Shown here one piece after another: positions 7,686-42,116 of a DNA stretch of 64,000 bases (positions are counted from its first letter, which is position 1; the number at the start of each line of letters is the position of its first letter). A program made the translations under genes and the position numbers. This DNA comes from Clostridiales bacterium (GTDB lineage Bacteria; Bacillota; Clostridia; Christensenellales; CAG-314): positions 1 through 64,000 of the forward strand of contig JAFLVM010000003.1 in the NCBI GenBank assembly GCA_022508305.1, read 5' to 3'. Under the pieces are notes generated by a model. The model worked only from the letters and a program-made list of their open reading frames with translations. It ran no database searches and was not told the origin of the DNA.

Positions 7686-7961
7686 TTATCTGCGTTTTTC
7701 CCTTTTGTCTGGAACCGCCTCAAGATCAAGCATGTCAAAATCGACGCTCTCCACAAAGTCGCGTGGCTTGAACCGTGTGTTGTTGAACATGACAAAGTGA
7801 TTGAAATTGACACGCGTAACAACAGGCGTAGGAATGTCCATTTGCTCACATACGTTCTGCATCACAGACACGAATTCCTCTTCGCAAGATACTGAACCGT
7901 ACTCATACAGCAGGTCGCGCGTGATTTTTTCGTCAACAATTGTCTTTGCCCATACCTTCAT
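7686..7961 (-). CDS. conserved hypothetical small protein
   Basis: 91 residues beginning MKVWAKTIVDEKITRD, with no signal peptide, TM segment or Cys motif. It looks like a compact alpha/beta protein ending in a basic tail (DKREKRR). I recognise the style from small clostridial proteins but cannot name a family or function. It lies upstream of tRNA-Gly on the same strand and divergent from the nucleosidase at 8099. Confidence 0.6.
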   Translation of the reverse strand: MKVWAKTIVDEKITRDLLYEYGSVSCEEEFVSVMQNVCEQMDIPTPVVTRVNFNHFVMFNNTRFKPRDFVESVDFDMLDLEAVPDKREKRR

Positions 7962-19672: not shown

Positions 19673-19866
19673 AAAAAAAACTCCTTTTGCGTTTTGCAAA
19701 AGCAGTCCGAAGTGTGGCAAGCCACAGATATGTCTCAACGCCGCGACAAATGGGTCGAAGCTTGAAAAGGCAACGGACCGAACGACGCACCGCAGAACGC
19801 ATGAGCTCTTTCGTCTATGCTTTTTCCTAAGCATAGCACTTGACGCGCGCCGTCAACTTTGCTACC
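19673..19866 (-). promoter_or_regulatory. candidate tetrahydrofolate (THF-I-like) riboswitch and expression platform
   Basis: Structured leader of the S-component gene, minus strand. The aptamer is about 19866 down to 19769. P1 is GGUAGC (19866-19861) with GUUGCC (19774-19769). A P2-like arm GACG/CGUC has an internal loop. The string CGCGUCAAGUG, an 8-bp hairpin CUAUGCUU/AAGCAUAG, then ACGAA and GCGGUG with UCCG before P1 follow the order of conserved elements I recall for THF riboswitches. The expression platform is a CUUUUGC/GCAAAAG hairpin that overlaps the AAAGGAG ribosome site and is followed by eight Us, so it could end transcription or hide the start. Confidence 0.6.
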
Positions 19867-28835: not shown

Positions 28836-28868
28836 AAATGCTTATCTAAAATGAGATAAGCATTTTTT
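28836..28868 (+). terminator. intrinsic terminator, GCTTATCT-type (copy 1)
   Basis: 12-bp stem AAATGCTTATCT (28836-28847) with complement 28854-28865 and a T-run. The stem core CTTATCT/AGATAAG recurs at 28955 and 40330. Confidence 0.9.
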
Positions 28869-28954
28869 ATATTTTTTGTTTATATTTATTTATCATAATT
28901 TTTTGATTTCACGCAATCTTCATATCTTTTTAAATATAACTAACACAATAATTT

Positions 28955-29086: not shown

Positions 29087-29554
29087 ATGAAAGCAACGTT
29101 GAAAGGTGTAGCAGTAGCGCTGTCAATTTTGGCAATGGTAATCGTAGTCCTCTCGGCAGTAGACAAGGCAAACGACGTAACTGTGGCGGTGACGGACACC
29201 TACTTAAAAATCGCAGTAGTTGACCTCAACGACGCGCCCGTCCACAACGCCAAGGTGACGGTTGGCGAGCTTAGCTTCTACACGGACAACAAAGGTATGT
29301 CTCCTACGATTCAACTCGGCAGCTACACCAATTGCTACGACAGTTCTATTACGGACTGGGGCACGGTTACAGTAATGATAGAAAAGGACGGCTTCGCTCC
29401 AACGTTCGTTTTCAACTGCGTAGTGTACAACGGTCAAACGAGGAAACTCACTGTCAAGATTTACCAACAGGACGCAAGCGAACTTCCCTACGTGAGCTAC
29501 GTTGAAAGCCCTCCCGACGACTACGTAAAAGGTTTGTTGACCTCCAACGACTGA
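29087..29554 (+). CDS. secreted or membrane-anchored beta-domain protein
   Basis: 155 residues. An N-terminal hydrophobic segment (about 7-25, an uncleaved anchor or signal) is followed by a domain with KIAVVDLNDAPVHNAKVTVGELSFYTDNKG. This is the pattern of carboxypeptidase-regulatory-like (CarboxypepD_reg) or Cna-B-like beta sandwiches. Function unknown. It lies 200 bases upstream of the DGR reverse transcriptase with a terminator between, so it is probably not part of that cassette. Confidence 0.6.
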   Translation: MKATLKGVAVALSILAMVIVVLSAVDKANDVTVAVTDTYLKIAVVDLNDAPVHNAKVTVGELSFYTDNKGMSPTIQLGSYTNCYDSSITDWGTVTVMIEKDGFAPTFVFNCVVYNGQTRKLTVKIYQQDASELPYVSYVESPPDDYVKGLLTSND

Positions 29555-29564
29555 CATCAAAAAG

Positions 29565-29600
29565 AAGGCAATCCGCGAACATGGGTTGTCCTTTTTTCTT
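29565..29600 (+). terminator. imperfect intrinsic terminator
   Basis: AAGGCAATCC and GGGTTGTCCTT arms with a bulge, followed by a long T-rich tract. It separates the upstream gene from the DGR. Confidence 0.65.
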
Positions 29601-29753
29601 TTATTATAAAATTTTTTTCACCCATATCGAAAAATTCGCAAAATTTATCTTTACTTTTGATGCAATCAAACAGTATATATAGTAGAATAGGTGTGTTCAT
29701 TAACGCTTTCAAACGCGTAATGAAGAATAAATTTCACAAAGGACAAGACTGTT

Positions 29754-30860
29754 ATGATCACCAAAACCTTCAATGAGATTTTTTCGTTTGAAGCGCTGTA
29801 CCGAGCCCACCTACACGGACGGGCAGGCAAACGCACCAAGAAGCCCGTCGTCAACTTCGAAATCAACATGGTCGAACGCATTTACGACTTGTACCAAAAG
29901 CTTCAAAGCGGCACGTACAGGCTAAGCAGGTACCACTCATTCGTTGTCTACGAGCCGAAAAAGCGCGAGATACAAACTCTGTGGTATTCCGACCGCGTTA
30001 TTCAGCACGTTCTCTGCGACGACGTACTTGCTCCCTACTTCACAAGGCGGGCAATGATAGACAACTGCGTGTGCCAAAAGGGTAAAGGTACGCACTTCGC
30101 TCTTGGGCGGTTTGAAAAAATGCTCAACAAGTTTATTTCAAAACACGGACCAAACGGCTACATTTTGAAGTGCGACATTCTGAAGTACTTTCCCTCTATT
30201 CCGCACGCGCAGCTGAAGGAAACGGTATGCTCTCAGATACTCGACCCGAAGCTTCGCGACTACATCGCCTACGTCATCGACAGCTATCACACCTCGCCCG
30301 ACTACTTGGCAAGATACGGGTTGCAGTCATACGGCGAGGGCTACAACACCGAACGGGGCATACCCATCGGCAACCAGTCCAGTCAAATATTCGGAATGTA
30401 CTTTCTCGACCCTGTGGACAGGCTTGTCAAGGAGCAGCTTCACGTAAAAGTGTATTCGCGGTATATGGATGACTTTGTTGCCGTTCACGAGGACAAGGAG
30501 TACTTGAAATACGTGCTCAGCGAAATTGAAAAGATGGTGGAGCGGTTGGGTTTGACCCTCAACACCAAAACGCAGATTTTTCCATTGAAAAACGGCGTAA
30601 CTTATCTTGGATTTCGCTATCACGTAACGCCCACGGGTAAATTGGTTAAGACTGTCAAGAAGCCAACCAAACGTCGCTTCCGTTGGCGGGCAAAGCTGCT
30701 CAAAAAGGCGTACCTCGACGGCACAATCGACAAAGAACGCGTCAAAGTGTCAATGACGGCAATGCACGGACATTTGTGCCACGCAAGAAACGCCAGATTA
30801 GAAAACGAACTTAACAAAAAGCTTTTACCAATGATAGCCACATCGGACAACGAGGAATGA
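29754..30860 (+). CDS. diversity-generating retroelement reverse transcriptase
   Basis: 368 residues of reverse transcriptase fingers and palm: KCDILKYFPSI with catalytic D141, the DGR-diagnostic IGNQSSQ (205-211) in place of the retroviral or intron sequence, and YMDD (237-240). There is no maturase or endonuclease domain, so it is not a group II intron enzyme. It copies template-repeat RNA with errors at adenines and the product replaces the variable repeat of the target gene. Ribosome site AAAGGA. It leads the cassette in the order RT, avd, TR, target, whereas the prototype order is target, avd, TR, RT. Confidence 0.96.
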   Translation: MITKTFNEIFSFEALYRAHLHGRAGKRTKKPVVNFEINMVERIYDLYQKLQSGTYRLSRYHSFVVYEPKKREIQTLWYSDRVIQHVLCDDVLAPYFTRRAMIDNCVCQKGKGTHFALGRFEKMLNKFISKHGPNGYILKCDILKYFPSIPHAQLKETVCSQILDPKLRDYIAYVIDSYHTSPDYLARYGLQSYGEGYNTERGIPIGNQSSQIFGMYFLDPVDRLVKEQLHVKVYSRYMDDFVAVHEDKEYLKYVLSEIEKMVERLGLTLNTKTQIFPLKNGVTYLGFRYHVTPTGKLVKTVKKPTKRRFRWRAKLLKKAYLDGTIDKERVKVSMTAMHGHLCHARNARLENELNKKLLPMIATSDNEE

Positions 30861-30865
30861 GGCAT

Positions 30866-30905
30866 GTGTTACGCTACAAAACGAGACTGTCTTGTAGCGT
30901 AACAC
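30866..30905. repeat. 14-bp perfect inverted repeat between RT and avd
   Basis: GTGTTACGCTACAA (30866-30879), 12-base loop, exact complement 30892-30905. It has no T-run, so a terminator role is doubtful. RNA processing, a cis-element or a cassette boundary is possible. A related stem (3' arm about 19 of 24 bases alike) closes the block at 40205-40301. Confidence 0.7.
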
Positions 30906-30993
30906 GTTCGCCATCTCGCTTCTCACGGTGCAAACAATAAAGTAATCATAATAGTCGTCCTTTGTCAAAATCACAAAAGAAAAAGAGGAAAAT

Positions 30994-31479
30994 ATGAAAG
31001 AAGAAAAACAGGTAAAAACCGAGATAGAAAATGAAATAGCAACCGAACTTAAAACAAACGAAATAACCGAAGAGGAAGCGCAACGCGCGGGCAGAAAGCC
31101 ATTTGTCATTCACGACTTCGACGCGCCCCACGACAGGGAAATGGCGGTGTTCACCTGCGCCAAGAAGTTGTCCGAGTACATTTTCGTAATCACGGAAAAG
31201 TCGCCCAAGAAGTTCCGTTGGAGCATAATTACCCGACTTCAAAACGCCTCGGTGGACATAATCGAAAACCTCTACCGCGCCAACTTCGAGCGTGAGGCGG
31301 AAAACCGTATCGCTTATCAAAAGAGCGCGCTTGTAAGCATCAATCTTGTCGATTTCTTTGCGGAAACGGCAAGGAGCAAGGGCGCGATAAACCTGCACCA
31401 AACGTCCGTCATCGCCAAGCAGATTGTGGAGTGCAAAAAGCTGCTAAACGGCTGGGTAAAAGCCACCAAGAACAAGTAA
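30994..31479 (+). CDS. avd: DGR accessory variability determinant (Avd-like)
   Basis: 161 residues. A charged N-terminal tail is followed by a four-helix bundle of the Avd / 23S-intervening-sequence type. FTCAKKLSEYIFVITEKSPKKFRWSIITRLQNASVDIIENLY matches the second helix pair, including the KxPxxxR-type motif. The protein is strongly basic. In the prototype system Avd forms a barrel-shaped pentamer that binds the reverse transcriptase and is essential for cDNA synthesis. Ribosome site AGAGGA. It sits between RT and TR on the same strand, 133 bases after the RT stop. Confidence 0.9.
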   Translation: MKEEKQVKTEIENEIATELKTNEITEEEAQRAGRKPFVIHDFDAPHDREMAVFTCAKKLSEYIFVITEKSPKKFRWSIITRLQNASVDIIENLYRANFEREAENRIAYQKSALVSINLVDFFAETARSKGAINLHQTSVIAKQIVECKKLLNGWVKATKNK

Positions 31480-31509
31480 GTCGAGCGTATCAAAATTAGG
31501 ATGATATTG

Positions 31510-31538
31510 TTGCTTTTTATAATATTAAATGCTATAAT
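31510..31538 (+). promoter_or_regulatory. promoter for the template-repeat RNA
   Basis: TTGCTT (31510-31515), 17-base spacer, perfect TATAAT (31533-31538). It lies 30 bases past the avd stop, and transcription would start near 31545, 28 bases ahead of the TR. Confidence 0.7.
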
Positions 31539-31572
31539 GATCACATGGGGCAAAAGTTTTGTTCGTGACGGT

Positions 31573-31693
31573 TGGTCCTGGCTGCGTTCCGCTAATAATA
31601 ATAATAGCAACAATGCTAACGTGCTGGGTGCCGGCGGCGTTAACAGTAATAACAACGTATCTAATACTAACGCCGTTCGTCCCGCGCTTCACT
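31573..31693 (+). repeat. DGR template repeat (TR)
   Basis: 121 bases matching the VR at 33363-33480. It has 31 adenines, clustered in AAT/AAC codons so that a read-through would give Asn-rich protein (e.g. SANNNNSNNANV). In the best alignment 21 adenines are changed in the VR against only one non-adenine base. The 3' end, GCCGTTCGTCCCGCGCTTCA with one T, is identical in both copies and GC-rich, the expected initiation of mutagenic homology. Confidence 0.95.
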
Positions 31694-31835
31694 CGCCTAC
31701 TTTACAAAAGATGAGACAGTAGGATATTTTCCCGTATTCGACGCGTACACTGACCGTCGAACAGTATTTTGAAACGAGTTGAAGGGGCTTTTGTCCTGCC
31801 TCGCATTTTGCCTTAATGGCAAGCGTGGTAAAACA

Positions 31836-31918
31836 GACTCAACCTTAACCTTACGCCGCAAGTGGCATACTACGGCTTTCGGTTATGAGCTTATTCAAGC
31901 GGTTGAGTCATTTTTTTT
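31836..31918 (+). terminator. closing stem and terminator of the template RNA
   Basis: GACTCAACC (31836-31844) pairs with GGTTGAGTC (31901-31909), followed by A and eight Ts. The 56-base interior folds further (for example GCC...GGC at 31853-31864), giving a multibranch terminator. Confidence 0.75.
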
Positions 31919-32063
31919 GTAATTTTTCCGAGTTTTTTCAAAGATCAGCAAACACAAATCAAACTATTGTATAACATTTTTGTCGCATTTTGCGGTTTTT
32001 TAGCGTATTTTCAACCCCCATTTTCCGATATGGGTGCAATTTTATTTTTTTTTAAACTATGGG

Positions 32064-32092
32064 TTGACATTTCTTTTCAAACAACATATACT
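32064..32092 (+). promoter_or_regulatory. consensus promoter of the DGR target gene
   Basis: TTGACA (32064-32069), 17-base spacer, TATACT (32087-32092), in a very AT-rich stretch. Transcript start is about 32099, giving a 244-base leader. Confidence 0.85.
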
Positions 32093-32161
32093 TACAGTGC
32101 CACAACGTCACCAATATTATGTTAAAGGTTTCGCGTATTTTTCGCGGGAGTTTTAGGCAAT

Positions 32162-32310
32162 ACTACTTGGTATAAACTAAGGCATTGAGTGTCTCTTTCT
32201 TCAAGTAGTGTTCCCAAAATCCTTTTTGCGCGACACAATATTGTTGACGGTGTGGCAACCTAAAGAGATACAATGCAAGGTGTGACTCTTTAGGGGGCCA
32301 CACCTTTTTT
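32162..32310 (+). promoter_or_regulatory. structured leader with an intrinsic terminator ahead of the target gene
   Basis: Within the leader, ACTACTTG (32162-32169) pairs with CAAGTAGT (32202-32209). A 17-bp stem follows: GGTGTGGC (32249-32256) plus CCTAAAGAG (32259-32267) pair with CTCTTTAGG (32286-32294) and GCCACACC (32297-32304), interrupted only by an AA/GG loop. It is followed by six Ts, 18 bases before the Shine-Dalgarno GGAGG. This is a terminator inside the leader, so attenuation is likely. A TCTCTTT (32192-32198) that can pair with AAAGAGA (32262-32268) is a possible antiterminator. Confidence 0.7.
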
Positions 32311-32342
32311 ATTATCGAACACTATTTGGAGGAAAACTCACA

Positions 32343-35300
32343 ATGCCTAAGACAAAATCAACGCTTTACAAAGTATCGCTTGCTTTGTTAGCAGTGATAC
32401 TGTGCGCGTCGGTGATTGCCGCTGTGTGTCTCACGACGACAACCGCAGAAGCGTACACCGGTTCGGAATTGAACAAGCTTACGTCCTACAACATTTACAA
32501 CAGTAGTACTAAGTCGTTTACCGCTTCCGAATTGAAGAAACTGTTTACGGCTCTTGGAAGCACCGACGGCACGTATGCAGGCTTGCCTGTAGCTACTGCC
32601 CAAGGACAGTCGGTAGCAGGTAAGAGCATTATCGTCGAACTTGGCGGTAAGAAGTGGATAGCGGTCTACTATTCCAAGGCAGACCAAGCTACCGCTAACA
32701 ATGCCAAGTCCATTGCTCCTGCAAAGGGCAAGGCAGACGACGGCGACAAGGTACTAACATTGTGGCTTGCAAACACATCGACAGGTAAGTACACTTGGAA
32801 CCAGTACTATGACACGGGAACAAACACAGGTTCTCACACTGGCACAGATACCGACTACCCGTCCAACAACTACGGTATCAGTTTCATGCGCGCGTCCGTA
32901 CTTAACAACGGCGGAGACTACTACAGTCCCGCAGCAAACGGACAAAACGCAACGGCTACGAGTAACCACGGTTATATAACTCCCGAGAACAACAAGGCTA
33001 ACACCGAGTTCTATGACTTCACAACCGACAATATCGGCTTGATGAGTTACCTTGTTGCGCCCCGTTACATGAAGTGGCAATATGACGGTCAACAAGCAAG
33101 AAACCTTCGCGCTACAAGCAACAACAGCCAGTGGTGGGACGGTATCTTGAACAACGACGCGTGGGGTCTTGGCGGTTCGTACAGCGACTCAAACGGCGCG
33201 TACAACTGGATTAACAAACCCGGTTACACCGCTTGGATTGACGACCTTGTTTGGTTGCCTTCTCTTCCCGAGACCGGTATGGATCACAGCGACGGACGTA
33301 CTTTCGTTGGTTTGTGGGGCACTTCCAAGATTCAGAATTCATTTGATAATACCGCAGCAGACTGGTCCTGGCTGCGTTCCTCTGTTTATAATAGCCACCG
33401 TGCGTGCGTGCTGGGTGCCGGCGGCGTTGGCAGTGGTCTCGACGTGTCTGGTACTTACGCCGTTCGTCCCGCGCTTCACTTAAATCTATCCTCTGCCGCG
33501 GAAGCGGCGGGGCTTACACACAGTAAGCATGACCTGAAATGGGTTGACGACGGAAACGGCAACCACTATCAACAATGCACAGGATGCGAATATAAATCTC
33601 AATCAACACCGCACACCATTCAGTACGGTGTATCTCTTGATGCCCAAAACAAGCACAAGGGATTCTGCACAGTGTGTCATCTTGAAATTACCGAAGACCA
33701 CAAGCCGACGGGCAATATCACCGACGAAGGCAATCACGACCACGACGGACACTGGACGACGTGTAGCGTGTGCGGCGACAAAGTGGGGTACGTAAAGCAC
33801 ACCTGGAGTGGAAGTTGGGCGCAAGCCGATGATTACCATTACAAACTTTGCGACCAATGCGGTGAGATATATAAAGAAGACCACACCGTAAAAACATGGA
33901 CAAAACAGCCAGACAATGCTAATCACAAGGGCTCTTGCGAAACGTGCAGTAAGGAGTTCACCCAGCCGCACGACCTGGTGTGGCAGCAGAATGAGGAAGG
34001 CAAGTTCTATCAAAAGTGCTCCGACTGCGACTACCAAACTGACCCACAAGGCAGCAGCGGTGACGTTCACGAACACACTTGGTCGCAAGAATGGGCGGTT
34101 GACGAAAGTCACCATTGGCACGAATGTGAAGACCTGTCCTGTACTGCACGCAATGATGTAGACGACCACCAGCTTGATGACTGGGTAGCAGTAGACGGCG
34201 AACATTACAGAGAATGTAAGACTTGTCACCACAAGGCTCGCGAGGAAAGTCACTACTTAACTAAGCACGAAGCAGAACCTGCGACCTGCAAACAAACAGG
34301 TATCAAGGAGTACTGGGAATGCTTGGTATGTAGCAAGTTCTTCTCCGACGAAGCAGGTGAAAACGAAATAAGCGACCTTAACAATTGGAAACAAATTCCC
34401 GAAACAAGCGGTGGTGGACAATTAGGTATTGATTCATCCGCTCACGTTTGGGGCAGCTGGACAGACGCAGGCAACGGCAAGCACGAAAGACAGTGTACTT
34501 TGTGCGAAGCTACGGAAAGCGGCGACCACAACCTGACTCACATTGTATACTTAGACACAGCTAAGCACGGCGGCTATTGCGAAGAGTGTCAACTGTACGT
34601 TGAAGAAACTCACACCGCAACAGGCGACTATGCTGACGCCGACAAGCACGACCAAAACAGTCACTGGAAGATTTGCCAAGTATGTAACGGCAAGGTAAAT
34701 GAAGTGGCTCACGAATTTACGGAAGAAACCTGGTCTGCAAGCGGCGGAAAGCACTGGAAGGGTCAATGCAATATTTGTAACCAAAGATTCTTCGAGGACA
34801 CTCACCAACTCACTAAGATAGACGCTACCGAGCCTACTTGCGTACAGGACGGACACAAGGACTACTGGCAATGTGACGTTTGCCAAAAGTACTTCTCCAA
34901 CCAAGAAGGCACGTCAGAAATAAGCAACCTTACCAACTGGCTCAACAATGCAGGTAACGTTGCCCGCACAGGTAACGAACACGAATGGGATGACATCTGG
35001 CACTACGACGGTGACGGCGGTCACTACCACGAATGCGTACACAACAGCGCTCACCGTAGTTCACTGCAACATCACAACTACAACGATAAGTACTACGATG
35101 ATGGCGGCAACAATCACTATCAGGTGTGCGAGGATTGCAGTTATGAAACTGACCACGCAAACCACTCGGTAACGGCTTGGTCAAGCAACGGTAGCGAATC
35201 TCACACCGGTACGTGCGGAATTTGTCACCTGACTCTTACCGTTAACCACGATTGGGAACAAACCAAATCATTCGACAACAACGGTCACTGGTATAATTGT

Positions 35301-38300
35301 AAGTTCCACGGACAAGGCTGTACCGCCAAAAAGGATTACGCAGAACACAAGGTAACAACTTGGAACAGCGCCGACGACGACAATCACCGCGGCAACTGCG
35401 TAGACTGTGACAAGACCGCTATTACGGCAGCGCACAGTATTCAGTGGAACGAGGACAGCTCTAACAAGCACTACAAGACTTGTACGGTATGCTCGAATTA
35501 CGAATCCAACCACGAAGATCACGTTGTCACAAGATGGGTTGACAGCGGTGACGGTTCTAACCACATCGGTTACTGTTCAGTATGCGGTTCGGAAGAAGCT
35601 ACGGCTGGTCACAATTGGGACACTGAAAACCTCAAGTACGACCTCAGCGGACACTGGTACGAATGTAAGGATTGCAAGGCTAAGAGAAGCGATGATGCAG
35701 TTACTCACGAGTGGAACAAGCTTGAGTGGAAGGTAGCTGACGGCAAGCACTACAAGGAATGCGCAATCTGTCATCAAAAGTACGAACACAACGCTCACGC
35801 AAAGGAAACGATAGCGCAAGTTGACCCGACGTGTAAGGCTACGGGAACCAAGGCTTACTACCATTGCGCTGTATGCGACAAGTACTTCTCTGACGAAGCA
35901 TGTGAAAAGCTTATTGACCTTGACAGCTGGAAGAACCAATCAGGCGACAACGGCGGACTTATTCCCGTTGACTCCACAGCTCACGTTTGGGGAGAATGGC
36001 AGCTTGACAGCGGCAAGGGCGAACACTACAGAGAGTGTACGGTTTGCCAAACGGAAGACGGCGCGTCTCGCGCTAAGCACACAGTAACCATTGCAACCTT
36101 TGTAGACAACGACGGACACCAAGGTTACTGTACAGAATGTAAACTTCCTGTAAAGGTAGAACACACGCTCAACACTGACTACAAAGCAGAAGGCAACCAC
36201 GACCTGAACAGTCACTGGCAGACCTGTACTGTATGTAACGGCAAAGCAAATGAAGTAACACACGAGTGGAGCGGCAGTTGGACGAACGCAGGCGACGACC
36301 ACACTAAGACTTGTGGCGACTGCGGACAGGTGAAACGCGAAGCTCACAGCGTAACGTCTTGGACGAACGCAGATGACGGCGCTAACCACAAAGGAACTTG
36401 CGAATGCGGCGCGGAAATCAAGGAAACTCACGTACTCAGCGAGCTGAAGAAAGAATCCGACGGCGACAAATATTATCAAGAGTGTACTGTTGAAGGATGC
36501 AACTACAAGGTAACCTTTGATGTAGGCGACGTTCACGTACACAAATTCACCGAATTGCGTTTTGACGCGGTAAGCCACTGGTACAAGTGTGCGGAATGCG
36601 ATGCGTTGAGTAACGTAACTTCCCACAGCGGTGGCGAATGGGTAACCGATGGCAGCGGACACCACAAGGAATGCGAAACCTGCCATCAAAATTACAACAG
36701 CGGTAACCATATCTTGTCCTACAAAGACAACAGTAACGGCAAGCACTATCAACAGTGCGAAATCTGCAGTCACACAACTGAAGAGCAAGCGCACGTTGTA
36801 ACAATTGTCAAGAAGGTAAACGACACCAACCACGAAGGACGCTGCAACGACTGTGGAGCAACTGTGACAACAGCGCACACACCTAACGGCGATTTCAAGT
36901 CCGAAAGCAACCACAACCTTGACGGTCACTGGCTGACTTGTACCGAATGTAACAGCAGATACAACGAGGCAACGCACGAGTGGAGCGGCAGTTGGACGCC
37001 CGCAGAAAGCGACCACACCAAGACATGTGGCGACTGCGGACAGGTAAAACGCGAAGCTCACAGTGTAACTTCTTGGTCAAAGGACGACAACGTTAACCAC
37101 AAGGGTAACTGCGACGGCTGCGGCAAGGAAATCAAGGAAGCTCACGTTCTTAGCGAGCTGAAGAAAGATGTTGACGGTAGCAAGTATTACCAAGAATGTA
37201 CAGTAGCAGGTTGTATCCACAGAGTAGATTTCAACGATGTAGGCGACGTTCACGTACACACTTACAAGTGGCAGCATGACGACTTCTCTCACTGGAGAGA
37301 GTGTACTGACGCAACGTGTAAAGCCCTTGAGGATGACCCCAAACCTCACGACTTCAGTAATGGTTGGGGCGTATCCGACGGCAAGCACACTCACACTTGC
37401 AAAGAGGATAACTGTGGCTACACTCTCACCGAAGCGCACAACTTGATTTCATTCAGTGGCAAGACGGCAAGCTGTACGGAATACGGTCAACAACCCTACT
37501 GGTACTGCAAAGTTTGCGAAAAGTATTTCTCGGACGCAGACGGCAAGCAACTGATTAACAAGGACATTGAACAATGGCTTGACAACGTTGGCGAAGGCAA
37601 GATTGACAAAATTGCCCACAGCTACAACGGCAACTGGCTGAGCAATGAAAGCGGTCACTGGAAAGAGTGTACCGTATGCGGAAACAAGCAATCTGACCCC
37701 GTAACCCACTCCTATGGCAGCTGGATTGAATATGACAACTGTCAACACTACAAAGAGTGCTCAGCCTGCAACTACAGAACATATGCTGATCACAGCTACG
37801 GCAGTAATTGGACAGTATCAGCGGGTAACCACTCACGCAAGTGCGACAGCTGTACTCACAATGACGAACAACTACACGACAACGGTCTTGCGAAAAACCG
37901 CACGGCGCAACAGAACCCCGTAGGTGACACACCGGGCGTAAGAGCATATTCAAGATGCAGTATTTGCGACACCTACTTTGACAACAGCGGCAACCTAATT
38001 GGTAACGGCGTATCAGCGCTCGAAAGCTGGAAAGAAGGCGCAGGCAAGATTAACCCCGGCGAAGAAATCGCCCCACACGAACACGTTTACAACAAGACAA
38101 ATCAACATGACGGCGTAAGCCACTGGGACGAATGTGAATGCGGCGCTCGCGAAAACGTAACAGCTCACCAAGTAGCAGTAGGTGGCTGGACTCCGACAAA
38201 CGCTACAACCCACACGGGCTCGTGCGCAGTATGCGGCGAAACGGTAACGAAAGCTCACACCCTCAACAAGGACAATGAGTGCGAGGAATGCGGATTCGTA

Positions 38301-38732
38301 CTTACAACAGCGTCCGACTGTAAACACGTCGTAACAAGCGGAACAAGCAACGGTAACGAAACTCACAGCGGCGTTTGCGAAGTTTGCGGACTTACCGTAA
38401 GCGTAGCTCACGAATTTGGCGATGATTACGTAACTGACGAGAACGGTCACTGGCACGAATGTTCAGTATGCGGAGCGAAAACAGACGAAGCTGAACACAC
38501 CGTATCCGAATGGACTACGGATGGCGAGCATAGTCACAGCGGAGATTGCGAAGTATGCGGCGAACATCTCGATGTTGAACACAAGTGGCTGTTCGGTAGG
38601 TGCCTTGGCTGTGACGACAGACTTGTTGAGTACTCCGAAGGCGACATCGGTTTGGCAGCTGTGGCAATTGTAGCCCAATTGTTCGGACTAATTGCAGTGG
38701 CGGCTATCATCAGTCGCAGAATGAAGAGATAA
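32343..38732 (+). CDS. DGR-diversified giant surface protein
   Basis: 2129 residues. A signal peptide (about 1-38, cleavage near TAEA) precedes an N-terminal domain of about 350 residues rich in Trp, Asn and Gly. That domain ends in the variable segment (341-380: WSWLRSS...AVRPALH), matching the W-LRS...VRPAL-L frame of DUF6273-like, C-type-lectin-like variable domains. Residues ~395-2085 are Cys/His-rich modules (H-W-x5-C-x2-C-G style, ~43 CxxC). A C-terminal TM (about 2103-2123) ends in SRRMKR. The protein would be anchored by its C-terminus with the variable head far from the cell. Ribosome site GGAGG. The partner gene starts 14 bases downstream. Confidence 0.92.
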   Translation: MPKTKSTLYKVSLALLAVILCASVIAAVCLTTTTAEAYTGSELNKLTSYNIYNSSTKSFTASELKKLFTALGSTDGTYAGLPVATAQGQSVAGKSIIVELGGKKWIAVYYSKADQATANNAKSIAPAKGKADDGDKVLTLWLANTSTGKYTWNQYYDTGTNTGSHTGTDTDYPSNNYGISFMRASVLNNGGDYYSPAANGQNATATSNHGYITPENNKANTEFYDFTTDNIGLMSYLVAPRYMKWQYDGQQARNLRATSNNSQWWDGILNNDAWGLGGSYSDSNGAYNWINKPGYTAWIDDLVWLPSLPETGMDHSDGRTFVGLWGTSKIQNSFDNTAADWSWLRSSVYNSHRACVLGAGGVGSGLDVSGTYAVRPALHLNLSSAAEAAGLTHSKHDLKWVDDGNGNHYQQCTGCEYKSQSTPHTIQYGVSLDAQNKHKGFCTVCHLEITEDHKPTGNITDEGNHDHDGHWTTCSVCGDKVGYVKHTWSGSWAQADDYHYKLCDQCGEIYKEDHTVKTWTKQPDNANHKGSCETCSKEFTQPHDLVWQQNEEGKFYQKCSDCDYQTDPQGSSGDVHEHTWSQEWAVDESHHWHECEDLSCTARNDVDDHQLDDWVAVDGEHYRECKTCHHKAREESHYLTKHEAEPATCKQTGIKEYWECLVCSKFFSDEAGENEISDLNNWKQIPETSGGGQLGIDSSAHVWGSWTDAGNGKHERQCTLCEATESGDHNLTHIVYLDTAKHGGYCEECQLYVEETHTATGDYADADKHDQNSHWKICQVCNGKVNEVAHEFTEETWSASGGKHWKGQCNICNQRFFEDTHQLTKIDATEPTCVQDGHKDYWQCDVCQKYFSNQEGTSEISNLTNWLNNAGNVARTGNEHEWDDIWHYDGDGGHYHECVHNSAHRSSLQHHNYNDKYYDDGGNNHYQVCEDCSYETDHANHSVTAWSSNGSESHTGTCGICHLTLTVNHDWEQTKSFDNNGHWYNCKFHGQGCTAKKDYAEHKVTTWNSADDDNHRGNCVDCDKTAITAAHSIQWNEDSSNKHYKTCTVCSNYESNHEDHVVTRWVDSGDGSNHIGYCSVCGSEEATAGHNWDTENLKYDLSGHWYECKDCKAKRSDDAVTHEWNKLEWKVADGKHYKECAICHQKYEHNAHAKETIAQVDPTCKATGTKAYYHCAVCDKYFSDEACEKLIDLDSWKNQSGDNGGLIPVDSTAHVWGEWQLDSGKGEHYRECTVCQTEDGASRAKHTVTIATFVDNDGHQGYCTECKLPVKVEHTLNTDYKAEGNHDLNSHWQTCTVCNGKANEVTHEWSGSWTNAGDDHTKTCGDCGQVKREAHSVTSWTNADDGANHKGTCECGAEIKETHVLSELKKESDGDKYYQECTVEGCNYKVTFDVGDVHVHKFTELRFDAVSHWYKCAECDALSNVTSHSGGEWVTDGSGHHKECETCHQNYNSGNHILSYKDNSNGKHYQQCEICSHTTEEQAHVVTIVKKVNDTNHEGRCNDCGATVTTAHTPNGDFKSESNHNLDGHWLTCTECNSRYNEATHEWSGSWTPAESDHTKTCGDCGQVKREAHSVTSWSKDDNVNHKGNCDGCGKEIKEAHVLSELKKDVDGSKYYQECTVAGCIHRVDFNDVGDVHVHTYKWQHDDFSHWRECTDATCKALEDDPKPHDFSNGWGVSDGKHTHTCKEDNCGYTLTEAHNLISFSGKTASCTEYGQQPYWYCKVCEKYFSDADGKQLINKDIEQWLDNVGEGKIDKIAHSYNGNWLSNESGHWKECTVCGNKQSDPVTHSYGSWIEYDNCQHYKECSACNYRTYADHSYGSNWTVSAGNHSRKCDSCTHNDEQLHDNGLAKNRTAQQNPVGDTPGVRAYSRCSICDTYFDNSGNLIGNGVSALESWKEGAGKINPGEEIAPHEHVYNKTNQHDGVSHWDECECGARENVTAHQVAVGGWTPTNATTHTGSCAVCGETVTKAHTLNKDNECEECGFVLTTASDCKHVVTSGTSNGNETHSGVCEVCGLTVSVAHEFGDDYVTDENGHWHECSVCGAKTDEAEHTVSEWTTDGEHSHSGDCEVCGEHLDVEHKWLFGRCLGCDDRLVEYSEGDIGLAAVAIVAQLFGLIAVAAIISRRMKR
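33363..33480 (+). repeat. DGR variable repeat (VR)
   Basis: 118 bases inside the target gene, codons 341-380. It matches the TR except at 21 adenine-derived positions, one T-to-G change and a 3-base deletion. The diversified codons encode the surface positions of WSWLRSSVYNSHRACVLG and of the GVGSGLDVSGTY stretch. Its 3' end is identical to the TR. Confidence 0.95.
33491..33512 (+). promoter_or_regulatory. GC-rich hairpin 3' of the VR (retrohoming target element)
   Basis: CTCTGCCGC, loop GGAA, GCGGCGGGG: a 9-bp stem with two G-T pairs, 10 bases past the VR end. The prototype DGR requires a GC-rich hairpin or cruciform with a GRNA-type tetraloop shortly 3' of the VR for target recognition. 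Position and form match, though here it lies inside the coding region. Confidence 0.7.
36261..37259 (+). repeat. near-identical ~95-residue internal duplication in the stalk
   Basis: The segment coded by 36261-36542 (HEWSGSWTNAG... to GDVHVH) recurs at 36975-37259 with most residues conserved (CGDCGQVKREAHSVTSW in both). The offset is about 715 bases (~238 residues), so a multi-module super-repeat was duplicated in recent time. Confidence 0.85.
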
Positions 38733-38746
38733 GCGAGGTACGACAC

Positions 38747-40195
38747 ATGTTGAATTTATTGAATGTAGTAGATTTTTTTGGATTGTACGGCATGGACATT
38801 GATCTGCACGACACGATGTTTTGGCTATACATTGCTCAAGCGGTAATTGTGTTTATCGGTATCATTATCTTCTTTGTTCTGCTTGCTCGCACACGCGGCG
38901 GAAAACAAAGAGTAGTGGAAAAGGTCATTGTTTACGAAGAAGAGGAAGAGGACGAAGAACCCGTTGTCCAAGAAATCCGTAAGAAAAAAGTAGTTAAAAA
39001 GCAAGAGACGAAGCCCGCAGCAGTTGAGGAAACTGCTGCTGTGGCAGCCGTCGCAGAACCTCAACCGCAAGTTATCGTAGTTCCTGCCCCTGCGGCAGAA
39101 CCTGTAAAGGAATCCGAAAAGGTTGAAAGAGTACTTACAGGTATCAATCTTGACGTGGGAGTAGTACAACGCGAATTCACGGTTGGCGAGGAATTTAATT
39201 GCGACGGACTGCTTGTACGCGCAAACTACAACCTTGAACCCCTCACCGAAACAATTATTGCCTACTCCGTAGTAGACAATGAAGTATTTGACAGACTGTC
39301 CAACGTTAGCGAAATTAAGGTATGCTACGTACTTCGCCCCGACGTCAGTGAGGCCGGAATCAAGTTCGTAACCGTCAAATACGCAGACCAAACGGCAATT
39401 TACACGATTTCTATCAAGAATGCTCCCGTTGCGGAAGTTAAGGAAGAACAACCCGCTCCCGTAGAGGCTAAGGAACAACCCGCAGAGCCGGTAGTAGTTG
39501 AGAAAATCGTTGAAAAGCCCGTAGTGGTTGAAAAGATAGTAGAAGTAGAAAAGATCGTCGAAAAGCCTGTCGTGGTCGAGACGGTTGTTGAGAAACCCGT
39601 AGTGGTTGAACGCGTCGTTGTTAAGGAACAACCCGCAGAAACCGTCATCATTGACGAGGAGTCCATTGAGGCTGGCAAGCTGCGTTACGACAAGAGCTTT
39701 ACCGCGCGTTTCATTCAGTCCGACGACGACGTGAAGCACTGGTACACTCAAGTCAAGAACGAACTTCTATCTTTCCAAAAAGCTAAAGCTCGCATAAGCT
39801 GGAAACGCGAAACCTTCAAGGCGAACAAGCAAGTAGTAGCTATGTTGGCATACCGCGGAAAGACCTTGTGTCTGTTCCTGCCGTTGAACCCCAACGACTA
39901 CGCCAATTCCAAGTTCGACGTTGAAGACGCGTCAAAGGTTCCTGCTTACGCTGAAACTCCCGCTCTCATCCGCCTGAAGAATGACAAGCACGTCAAGTTT
40001 GCATTGGAATTGATTGGCGAGGCAATGAAGCAGAAGGGCGTCGATCGCAACGTTGCTTACGTTTCCGAAGACTTCTACCTTCCCTACGAGGGCATTGTAG
40101 AACTTATCAATAAGGGACTTGTAAAGCGCGAAATCAAGACCGCGGCAGACGAAGCGGTTTTCGAGCGCGGCAAGCAAACCGAGGACGACGAATAG
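38747..40195 (+). CDS. membrane protein with EKPVVVEKIVE repeats, DGR-target partner
   Basis: 482 residues. One TM near the N-terminus (about 23-45), followed by RTRGGKQR, implies that the rest is cytosolic. Next come an acidic stretch, a Glu/Pro/Ala linker, a small beta domain (about 135-225), then Val/Glu/Lys/Pro repeats (EKPVVVEKIVE type, 252-305). The C-terminal domain (about 315-470, KLRYDKSFTARFIQSDDDVK...) is seen in other gut Bacillota membrane proteins but I cannot name it. It starts 14 bases after the target stop (ribosome site GAGG), so it is surely co-expressed. A cytosolic link to the anchored surface protein is inference. Confidence 0.7.
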   Translation: MLNLLNVVDFFGLYGMDIDLHDTMFWLYIAQAVIVFIGIIIFFVLLARTRGGKQRVVEKVIVYEEEEEDEEPVVQEIRKKKVVKKQETKPAAVEETAAVAAVAEPQPQVIVVPAPAAEPVKESEKVERVLTGINLDVGVVQREFTVGEEFNCDGLLVRANYNLEPLTETIIAYSVVDNEVFDRLSNVSEIKVCYVLRPDVSEAGIKFVTVKYADQTAIYTISIKNAPVAEVKEEQPAPVEAKEQPAEPVVVEKIVEKPVVVEKIVEVEKIVEKPVVVETVVEKPVVVERVVVKEQPAETVIIDEESIEAGKLRYDKSFTARFIQSDDDVKHWYTQVKNELLSFQKAKARISWKRETFKANKQVVAMLAYRGKTLCLFLPLNPNDYANSKFDVEDASKVPAYAETPALIRLKNDKHVKFALELIGEAMKQKGVDRNVAYVSEDFYLPYEGIVELINKGLVKREIKTAADEAVFERGKQTEDDE

Positions 40196-40204
40196 TAGGA
40201 TTCG

Positions 40205-40308
40205 GGGGTTCCACTAAAACAGGGTCGCTAAGCCTTGTTAGCAGCATTTATGACCAACCAAAACAAACCGCTTTACTGCGACTGTTTTGTAGCGGAACCC
40301 CATTCCCT
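40205..40308 (+). terminator. large hairpin with terminator tail after the DGR locus
   Basis: GGGGTTCC (40205-40212) pairs with GGAACCCC (40294-40301). The inner arms CTAAAACAG and CTGTTTTGTAG also pair, and a sub-hairpin GCTAA/TTAGC lies at 40227-40242. The tail is ATTCCCTTTTTT. Related in sequence to the inverted repeat at 30866-30905. Confidence 0.75.
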
Positions 40309-40325
40309 TTTTTAACCACAAATTC

Positions 40326-40362
40326 AAATTGCTTATCTGAACTAAGATAAGCAATTTTTTTA
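40326..40362 (+). terminator. intrinsic terminator, GCTTATCT-type (copy 3)
   Basis: 13-bp stem AAATTGCTTATCT (40326-40338) with complement 40345-40357 and a T-run. Shares its core with the two hairpins at 28836 and 28955. Confidence 0.88.
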
Positions 40363-40366
40363 TTTT

Positions 40367-40399
40367 TCAAAAAGGCTCATTCCTTAGGAATTGAGCCTT
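40367..40399 (-). terminator. terminator of the GH13 gene
   Basis: On the minus strand AAGGCTCA-ATTCC/GGAA-TGAGCCTT (one bulge) followed by TTTTGAAAAAT. It lies 40 bases past the GH13 stop. Confidence 0.8.

Positions 40400-40436: not shown

Positions 40437-42116
<1,680 letters not shown>

Follow-up and report, generated by a model that had tools for sequence, protein, structure and literature searches.

A chromosomal diversity-generating retroelement of a Clostridiales bacterium, with its variable repeat in the head of a giant, probably membrane-anchored protein

RESULTS

Anatomy of the element

A 64,000-nucleotide stretch of DNA from a Clostridiales bacterium (order Christensenellales; contig JAFLVM010000003.1, positions 1 to 64,000; hereafter the window) holds an intact diversity-generating retroelement (DGR) at 29754-38732, composed of a reverse transcriptase (RT), the accessory protein Avd, a template repeat (TR) and a target gene with the matching variable repeat (VR). 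We consider it highly probable that this is a complete chromosomal DGR that rewrites the head of a giant, probably membrane-anchored protein. A preliminary description of the DNA, made from its letters, had placed all parts on one strand, and each was recovered on the + strand as listed here. The genome comprises 1.47 Mb in 46 contigs.

29754..30860, + strand: DGR reverse transcriptase, 368 aa (open reading frame [ORF]; PF00078, 6e-18; phrog_1423 "Reverse transcriptase," 2e-100; PDB 8ub7_A, 1e-33)
30994..31479, + strand: Avd accessory protein, 161 aa (phrog_3206 "Avd protein of DGR," 3e-16; NF033474, 2e-11; bAvd, 9e-8)
31573..31693, + strand: template repeat, 121 nt with 31 A (repeat comparison, alignment)
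31690..31914, + strand: structured RNA (spacer) downstream of the TR, with a closing stem at 31836-31909 and then a T run (fold z −3.4; covariation; model)
32343..38732, + strand: target gene, 2129 aa (ORF; DUF6273 at residues 293-381)
33363..33480, + strand: variable repeat, residues 341-380 of the 2129 in the target (TR/VR alignment)
33458..33480, + strand: adenine-poor 3' end common to TR and VR, resembling the initiation of mutagenic homing (IMH) element (alignment; role by analogy)
33495..33508, + strand: 5-bp hairpin GCCGC-GGAA-GCGGC inside the ORF, 15 nt past the VR (stem search)

Differences between TR and VR were concentrated at template adenines. In an adenine-tolerant alignment, 21 of 22 substitutions fell at the 31 adenines of the TR (P ~9e-15). 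A>G accounted for 11 of the changes from TR to VR, A>T for 6, and A>C for 4; the remaining one was T>G, and 3 nt of the TR were missing from the VR. Under plain scoring (6 of 16 co-optimal alignments inspected), the gap shifted, and 18 to 19 changes fell at A and 2 elsewhere (P ~1e-12). Adenine was present in 17 of the 37 TR codons ahead of the last. Within the window genome the TR stretch matched solely itself and the VR, and the idea of a second target was dropped on this ground. The adenine-poor end shared by the two repeats may be an IMH-like element, by analogy with known systems.

The RT carries IGNQSSQ at residues 205-211, YMDD at 237, and a basic patch near its C terminus (11 K/R within 20 aa, residues 299-318). 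An SQ motif, (I/V/L)GxxxSQ, and a C-terminal basic patch are given as typical for DGR RTs (PMC3521204; like the other papers below, cited from excerpts), and the window RT has both. The gene that the preliminary description called Avd-like matched the PHROGs family of that name, as listed; a search of the PDB with it returned no match.

A clade of relatives with a covarying spacer RNA

Relative loci (labeled L0xx for RT/DUF6273 loci, with G0xx for genomes, including those of the same genus) came from one scan of genome contigs (59 loci) and one of viral contigs (22 loci). A quick-method RT tree of 60 rows (the window with 45 of these genome loci and 14 of these viral ones) placed the window in a clade of 29 rows (SH-aLRT 99) that included no viral row; most of its records are labeled as Clostridia metagenome-assembled genomes. 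An Avd homolog lay near the RT in 26 of the 28 other clade loci, the misses being L014, where the contig ends right after the RT, and L034.

The clade has a layout of its own. A TR was located in 26 clade loci, each time with at least one copy 3' of RT and avd. In L007, L008, L010, L016, and L029 (L029:11981-12097), the TR is on the strand opposite the RT; L018 carries a further unit that precedes the RT. Outside the clade, where 52 loci were scanned and 40 pairs obtained, the TR was upstream of the RT in 40/40, and in 36 of these pairs the best VR had at most 36 residues behind it (a contig end truncates one). The phage-type loci L065-L067 and L071 departed from this near-C-terminal placement. 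Our TR/VR scans take same-strand, ungapped pairs with an adenine excess, so inverted TRs and gap-split pairs escape them; no pair was obtained from 19 of 35 entries in the first scan and from 12 of 52 in the scan outside the clade. Pooling of 11 clade pairs gave changes at 167 of 337 A sites versus 11 of 924 other sites, most of these pairs coming from the scan that itself requires an adenine excess. The L029 pair, found by motif, showed 12 changes at A and 0 elsewhere.

The sequence after the TR folded better than its shuffles, with the z score listed above. RNAalifold, applied to 16 aligned relatives, returned 42 pairs, 29 of them with change on both sides; 92.4% of the spacer cells pair, and both-side changes numbered 114, compared to 37.1 in shuffles (0/500 reached 114) and at most 27 when partners were slid. 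A hairpin directly 3' of the TR, outside the model structure, folded in 18 of the 18 sequences tried. A model built from the 16 loci was run on 74 sources, a set that lacked 8 of the 59 genome loci (none a clade member), and matched 39 places in 26 of these sources. It recovered the RNA in 26 of the 29 clade loci, 10 of which were not used in building (misses: L011, L014, and L021), and gave 0 matches on 45 loci outside the clade, 22 of them viral; the window spacer scored 162 bits. Among 396 genomes sampled from the order, 12 had the RNA, and these belong to four families; within the family, 3 of 41 genomes had it, the same three that carry the RT. No Rfam family matched the spacer RNA at its cut-off. 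The T run behind the closing stem makes it probable that the TR RNA stops ahead of the target gene. The BPP-1 spacer serves both to recruit RT-Avd and to prime cDNA (PMC12875486), and the spacer described here may, by analogy, play the same role.

The variable head of the target and its stalk

In the target the VR is near the N terminus, not the C terminus. A hydrophobic N terminus precedes the head, and the VR is followed by 1750 residues with 43 CxxC motifs, a hydrophobic C-terminal segment, and a basic tail. The DUF6273 match, at 4e-6, is over its cut-off, and DUF6273 has been reported to resemble the C-type lectin (C-lec) fold (PMC10743442). A PDB profile search with the head gave no useful match, the stalk gave one weak match (9qa6 "IgA protease," 4e-8), and no Ig family matched the target, whose stalk is of the CxxC type. 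In 11 of 12 clade targets the VR ends at residue 323-468; the frame of L017 starts past a stop inside its VR. Between 194 and more than 3000 residues follow the VR in these 12 targets, five of whose frames run off the contig or stretch.

The same genome encodes a giant frame (G000 C1:491090-509998; L133, L134) of at least 6303 aa with 88 CxxC motifs, which has a different, repeat-rich front in which DUF6273 was not matched. In a blastp comparison covering 3637 residues of this frame, matches to the target began at target residue 391 or later, just past the hairpin; identity was 24 to 42% in the repeats and rose to 55% in the final 152 residues. That the likeness starts just after the hairpin suggests a grafted head, and a head module may have been joined onto a stalk that was already resident. 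In G007, the closest DGR relative (RT 79% identical), the stalk is without CxxC.

A hairpin inside the reading frame behind the VR

A GC hairpin after the VR is required for BPP-1 (Guo et al. 2011, PMC3240598). At 11 of 13 VR-like sites we found a hairpin of 5 to 7 pairs with a loop of 3 to 4 nt, starting 13 to 16 nt past the VR. The two sites without it were L032, a locus from outside the clade whose sequence breaks off 23 nt past the VR, and L029b, a DUF6273 gene unmatched to the local TR (32 non-A differences versus 0 for L029a). With G007 added, the hairpin was present in 12/12 readable clade targets at a fixed place. Its arms co-vary, reading GCCGTGC/GCACGGC in L023 and GCCGCGC/GCGCGGC in L034. 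Stems of at least 5 bp were found in 0 of 5 untargeted DUF6273 genes (four from genus genomes without RT, plus L029b), these five being the DUF6273 genes that could be anchored by motif out of 37 DUF6273 matches in 15 genomes. Behind the N-terminal VRs of the phage-type loci L065-L067 and L071, there was likewise no stem of at least 5 bp with a loop of 3 to 5 nt. Within the 60 nt that follow the VR, a longer stem, of 6 bp, lies further on than the window hairpin. A control rule of stem ≥6 and loop 4 was satisfied by 13 of 559 windows; most targets do not follow this rule, and it was not used as proof. Among the largely open-access papers and excerpts consulted, none described a hairpin within the ORF downstream of an N-terminal VR.

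Template arrays in relatives

The window has a single template copy without in-frame stop. More than one template or spacer unit was present in 9 of the 26 clade loci with a TR, with copies mostly in tandem: six in L005, four in L003, three each in L006, L007, L012, and L016, and two each in L010, L015, and L018. Four arrays have a VR that can be read, and in each of them a single template, never the last one, fits it far better than the others do. The best-fitting template was the third of four in G007 (2 non-A differences versus 14-18), the first of three in L006 (1 versus 10-13), the first of two in L015 (3 versus 12), and the second of six in L005 (1 versus 11-17, with the VR cut by a contig end). 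The last template is the only one with its own spacer RNA in L003, L006, and L015. Elements with more than one TR have been reported elsewhere: a Stenotrophomonas SKA14 DGR has two (PMC6642488), and several occur in Treponema metagenomes (PMC4891356).

The final TR motif search, which admits stop codons and yielded the fourth TR of L003, also yielded stop-bearing TRs. In-frame stops occurred in 11 of 39 motif-found template copies, from 9 of the 26 clade loci (some copies being nearly identical), and in 4 of 39 templates outside the clade, one with a doubtful frame. The stop of the L028 template is gone from the L028 VR. The L017 VR (7787-7900) keeps the in-frame TAA of its template, so the present L017 target would stop within the VR. 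As a separate observation, L012:3203-4140 holds three template-spacer units, two of whose templates have 4% and 9% A versus 19%; these low-adenine templates look as if they had been overwritten themselves.

Leader, neighboring gene, and chromosomal setting

Further features accompany the target gene and delimit the element.

32064..32092, + strand: promoter-like TTGACA-N17-TATACT ahead of the target gene (consensus match only; 11 found versus 4.0 expected in the region)
32100..32342, + strand: strongly structured 5' leader of the target gene (fold z −7.0)
38747..40195, + strand: 482-aa protein with one hydrophobic segment (by eye); homologs lie behind the giant stalk paralog (68%) and behind the G007 target (53%)
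29560..40330, no strand assigned: approximate island, missing from the same place in the six same-genus genomes read

The leader contains a terminator-like stem and T run at 32249-32310, seen by eye and absent from the terminator scan, and the ribosome-binding site is paired in the predicted fold, which may control expression. A match of 75% over 177 nt lies upstream of the G007 target. Tested as an RNA family common to several targets, the leader gave a partial match in G007 alone across 24 other genomes of the genus and mixed results in other targets, and the idea was not retained.

In the window a DegV gene (27971) and an alpha-amylase-family gene (40440-42116) flank a gap of 11.6 kb. The same pair faces across 689 bp in G008, 861 in G007, 718 in G010, 697 in G005, 2271 in G009, and 1665 in G023. 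All six short gaps hold a homolog (52 to 83%) of the 155-aa gene at 29087-29554, and none gave an RT or Avd match; G007 and G010 carry a DGR on other contigs. Because the RT is present in 3 of 41 family genomes and six sites lack the DGR, the element is best described as a patchy chromosomal island and not a fixed host gene. The preliminary description had called it chromosomal and host-owned; the former stands, and the latter has to be qualified in this sense. Near-repeats of 41 bp at 28836-28876 and 40327-40367 (85% identical) were considered as island ends and rejected, as they are terminator-like hairpins and the empty sites place no junction there; we therefore claim no insertion mechanism.

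The window has 58 ORFs of at least 150 aa, and the phage-family scan covered 16 flanking ORFs with Pfam and 10 with PHROGs. By Pfam, 12 of the 16 matched metabolic, transport, tRNA-synthetase, and similar families (one weakly) and 4 were unmatched; by PHROGs, the 10 fell in unknown or auxiliary-metabolic families only. No phage structural or integration family and no integrase was seen in this set, in agreement with the earlier statement that phage genes do not surround the element. Elsewhere in the window, a tetrahydrofolate (THF) riboswitch (Rfam RF01831) lies at 19769-19863 on the − strand, before an energy-coupling factor (ECF) transporter gene.

DISCUSSION

By the mechanism reported for BPP-1, read here from anatomy, RT and Avd would bind a transcript made up of the TR and its 3' structured spacer, and copying of this RNA would introduce errors at adenines. 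The resulting cDNA would replace the VR, changing up to ~17 codons of the lectin-like head. The GC hairpin needed in BPP-1 would be read in frame here as a short Ala-rich linker, and head plus linker would form a module fused onto a stalk/anchor type already in the host. Such a head could be displayed at the cell surface and bind ligands.

The element shares with the Bordetella phage BPP-1 an RT, Avd, TR, VR, adenine-specific change, and a hairpin after the VR, whose loop in the window, GGAA, fits the GRNA published for BPP-1 (PMC3240598). Unlike in BPP-1, the window hairpin lies inside the ORF and has a shorter stem, the VR is near the N terminus, the spacer RNA is followed by its own terminator-like stem, and the element sits in a host chromosome. 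The preliminary description had stressed a different gene order, and this holds in part: the RT is upstream of avd and the target downstream of the TR, whereas the order avd-TR-spacer is common to both (PMC12875486). Differences in gene order are common among DGRs (PMC3521204). An N-terminal DUF6273/C-lec head bearing the VR is shared with the tentaclins of phages nd4 and nd12 (PMC10743442). In those excerpts, phage tentaclins have 313 to 649 aa and Ig domains, and bacterial tentaclin-like proteins reach 1445 aa in Brevibacillus, compared to 2129 aa and a CxxC stalk here; of the tentaclin features, the window target has the N-terminal VR and lacks the Ig domains and the C-terminal Ig consensus. 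The phage-type loci also differ from the window in having the TR upstream of the RT. Roux et al. 2021 (PMC8144416) describe a C-terminal VR as near-universal, suggesting that cis elements are thereby free to be intergenic, and an N-terminal transmembrane segment or signal peptide for most cellular targets. Like those cell-encoded C-lec targets, mostly thought to be membrane-anchored, the window target is cellular and probably anchored; unlike them, it has its VR near the N terminus with a long stalk behind. Stenotrophomonas SKA14 resembles nine relatives of the window (2 to 6 copies) in having more than one TR, whereas the window has one (PMC6642488).

Several observations weigh against an active DGR with an in-frame homing signal and an anchored target. 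The Avd scores for NF033474 (NCBIfam) and bAvd (Pfam) are under the curated cut-offs, the TR/VR pair has a 3-nt gap and 1 to 2 non-A changes, and activity of the DGR is deduced from the anatomy of one genome. The window stem has 5 perfect pairs, compared to the 7- to 10-bp stem with GRNA loop reported in PMC3240598, and GRNA fits only 3 of 12 clade loops, that of the window among them. Synonymous shuffles gave P values of 0.009-0.40 per gene (window, 0.40) and a combined P of 2e-4 with related genes taken as independent. A hydrophobic C-terminal segment was present in 3 of 7 complete clade targets (window, G007, and L015) and missing from 4, so the claim of anchoring is not extended to the clade as a whole.

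The most serious alternative concerns the hairpin, which might be a mere by-product of an Ala-rich linker with GC-rich codons and no cis signal. Short stems and varying loops are consistent with this, and the shuffles, with P up to 0.40, indicate that Ala-rich coding alone is often able to make such a stem. The place of the hairpin is nevertheless fixed in 12/12 targets, its arms change together in L023 and L034, and all five untargeted DUF6273 genes, including the Ala-rich L124, are without a stem of at least 5 bp; we regard a by-product as somewhat unlikely, though a real prospect, and the hairpin as a candidate cis signal. Less probable is a dormant or decaying DGR, with all parts kept and the VR frozen since the last homing. 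Such dormancy would account for the gap and the non-A substitutions between TR and VR, and the DGR was read in a single genome; yet RT, Avd, and the 2129-codon target are all open, the spacer RNA still fits the clade model at its 162 bits, and 21 of 31 adenine sites are changed versus 1 of 87 others. We give dormancy only a small chance.

The origin of the RT poses two further questions. A prophage or phage-remnant DGR is suggested by the nearest phage RT records, which are ~40% identical and include one from phage nd12, and by DUF6273 targets known from phages (PMC10743442), including Faecalibacterium prophages (PMC11792537). We judge it very unlikely given the RT clade without viral rows (14 such rows in the quick-method tree), the flanking ORFs free of phage structural or integration families, and the six same-genus genomes that keep the flanking genes and the 155-aa homolog without RT or Avd. 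Assignment of the RT to a group II intron, retron, or antiviral system, with a coincidental repeat, draws on matches to several RT models: NCBIfam group II (1e-23) and, in PADLOC, whose models carry no cut-offs, a general RT model (2e-28) and RT_UG4 (2e-25). The NCBIfam scores are far under their cut-offs, with 83.9 of 300 bits for group II and 43.6 of 235 for retron, and on this basis the window RT was rejected both as a group II intron maturase and as a retron RT. The best PDB sequence match was 8ub7_A "Reverse transcriptase," at 1e-33, whereas a group II maturase scored 5e-9 and retron-type RTs 4e-4. We take the 8ub entries to be the BPP-1 complex, which the PDB listing itself does not state. 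With Avd and an adenine-biased repeat adjoining the RT, such an assignment has next to no probability, and the identification as a DGR RT in the preliminary description is borne out.

For the lineage as a whole, we tentatively propose, as a possibility short of an even chance, that lectin head, VR, IMH, and cis hairpin form a self-contained front module. It would be fusable to different stalks because the retrohoming hairpin doubles as a protein linker, and relatives would add up to six alternative templates, the VR having last been written from one other than the final copy in all four arrays whose VR can be read, as well as stop-bearing templates for switch-off by homing. An N-terminal VR in DUF6273 heads (tentaclins, PMC10743442) and multi-TR elements (PMC6642488, PMC4891356) were already known; beyond these, the retrohoming signal of this lineage seems to lie within the gene and to serve as a linker, an arrangement that would permit stalks and anchors to be swapped freely behind a hypervariable head. 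If true, this would widen the range of proteins that DGRs can diversify and provide a natural, portable head-plus-signal design, with the covarying RNA as a handle for finding such elements.

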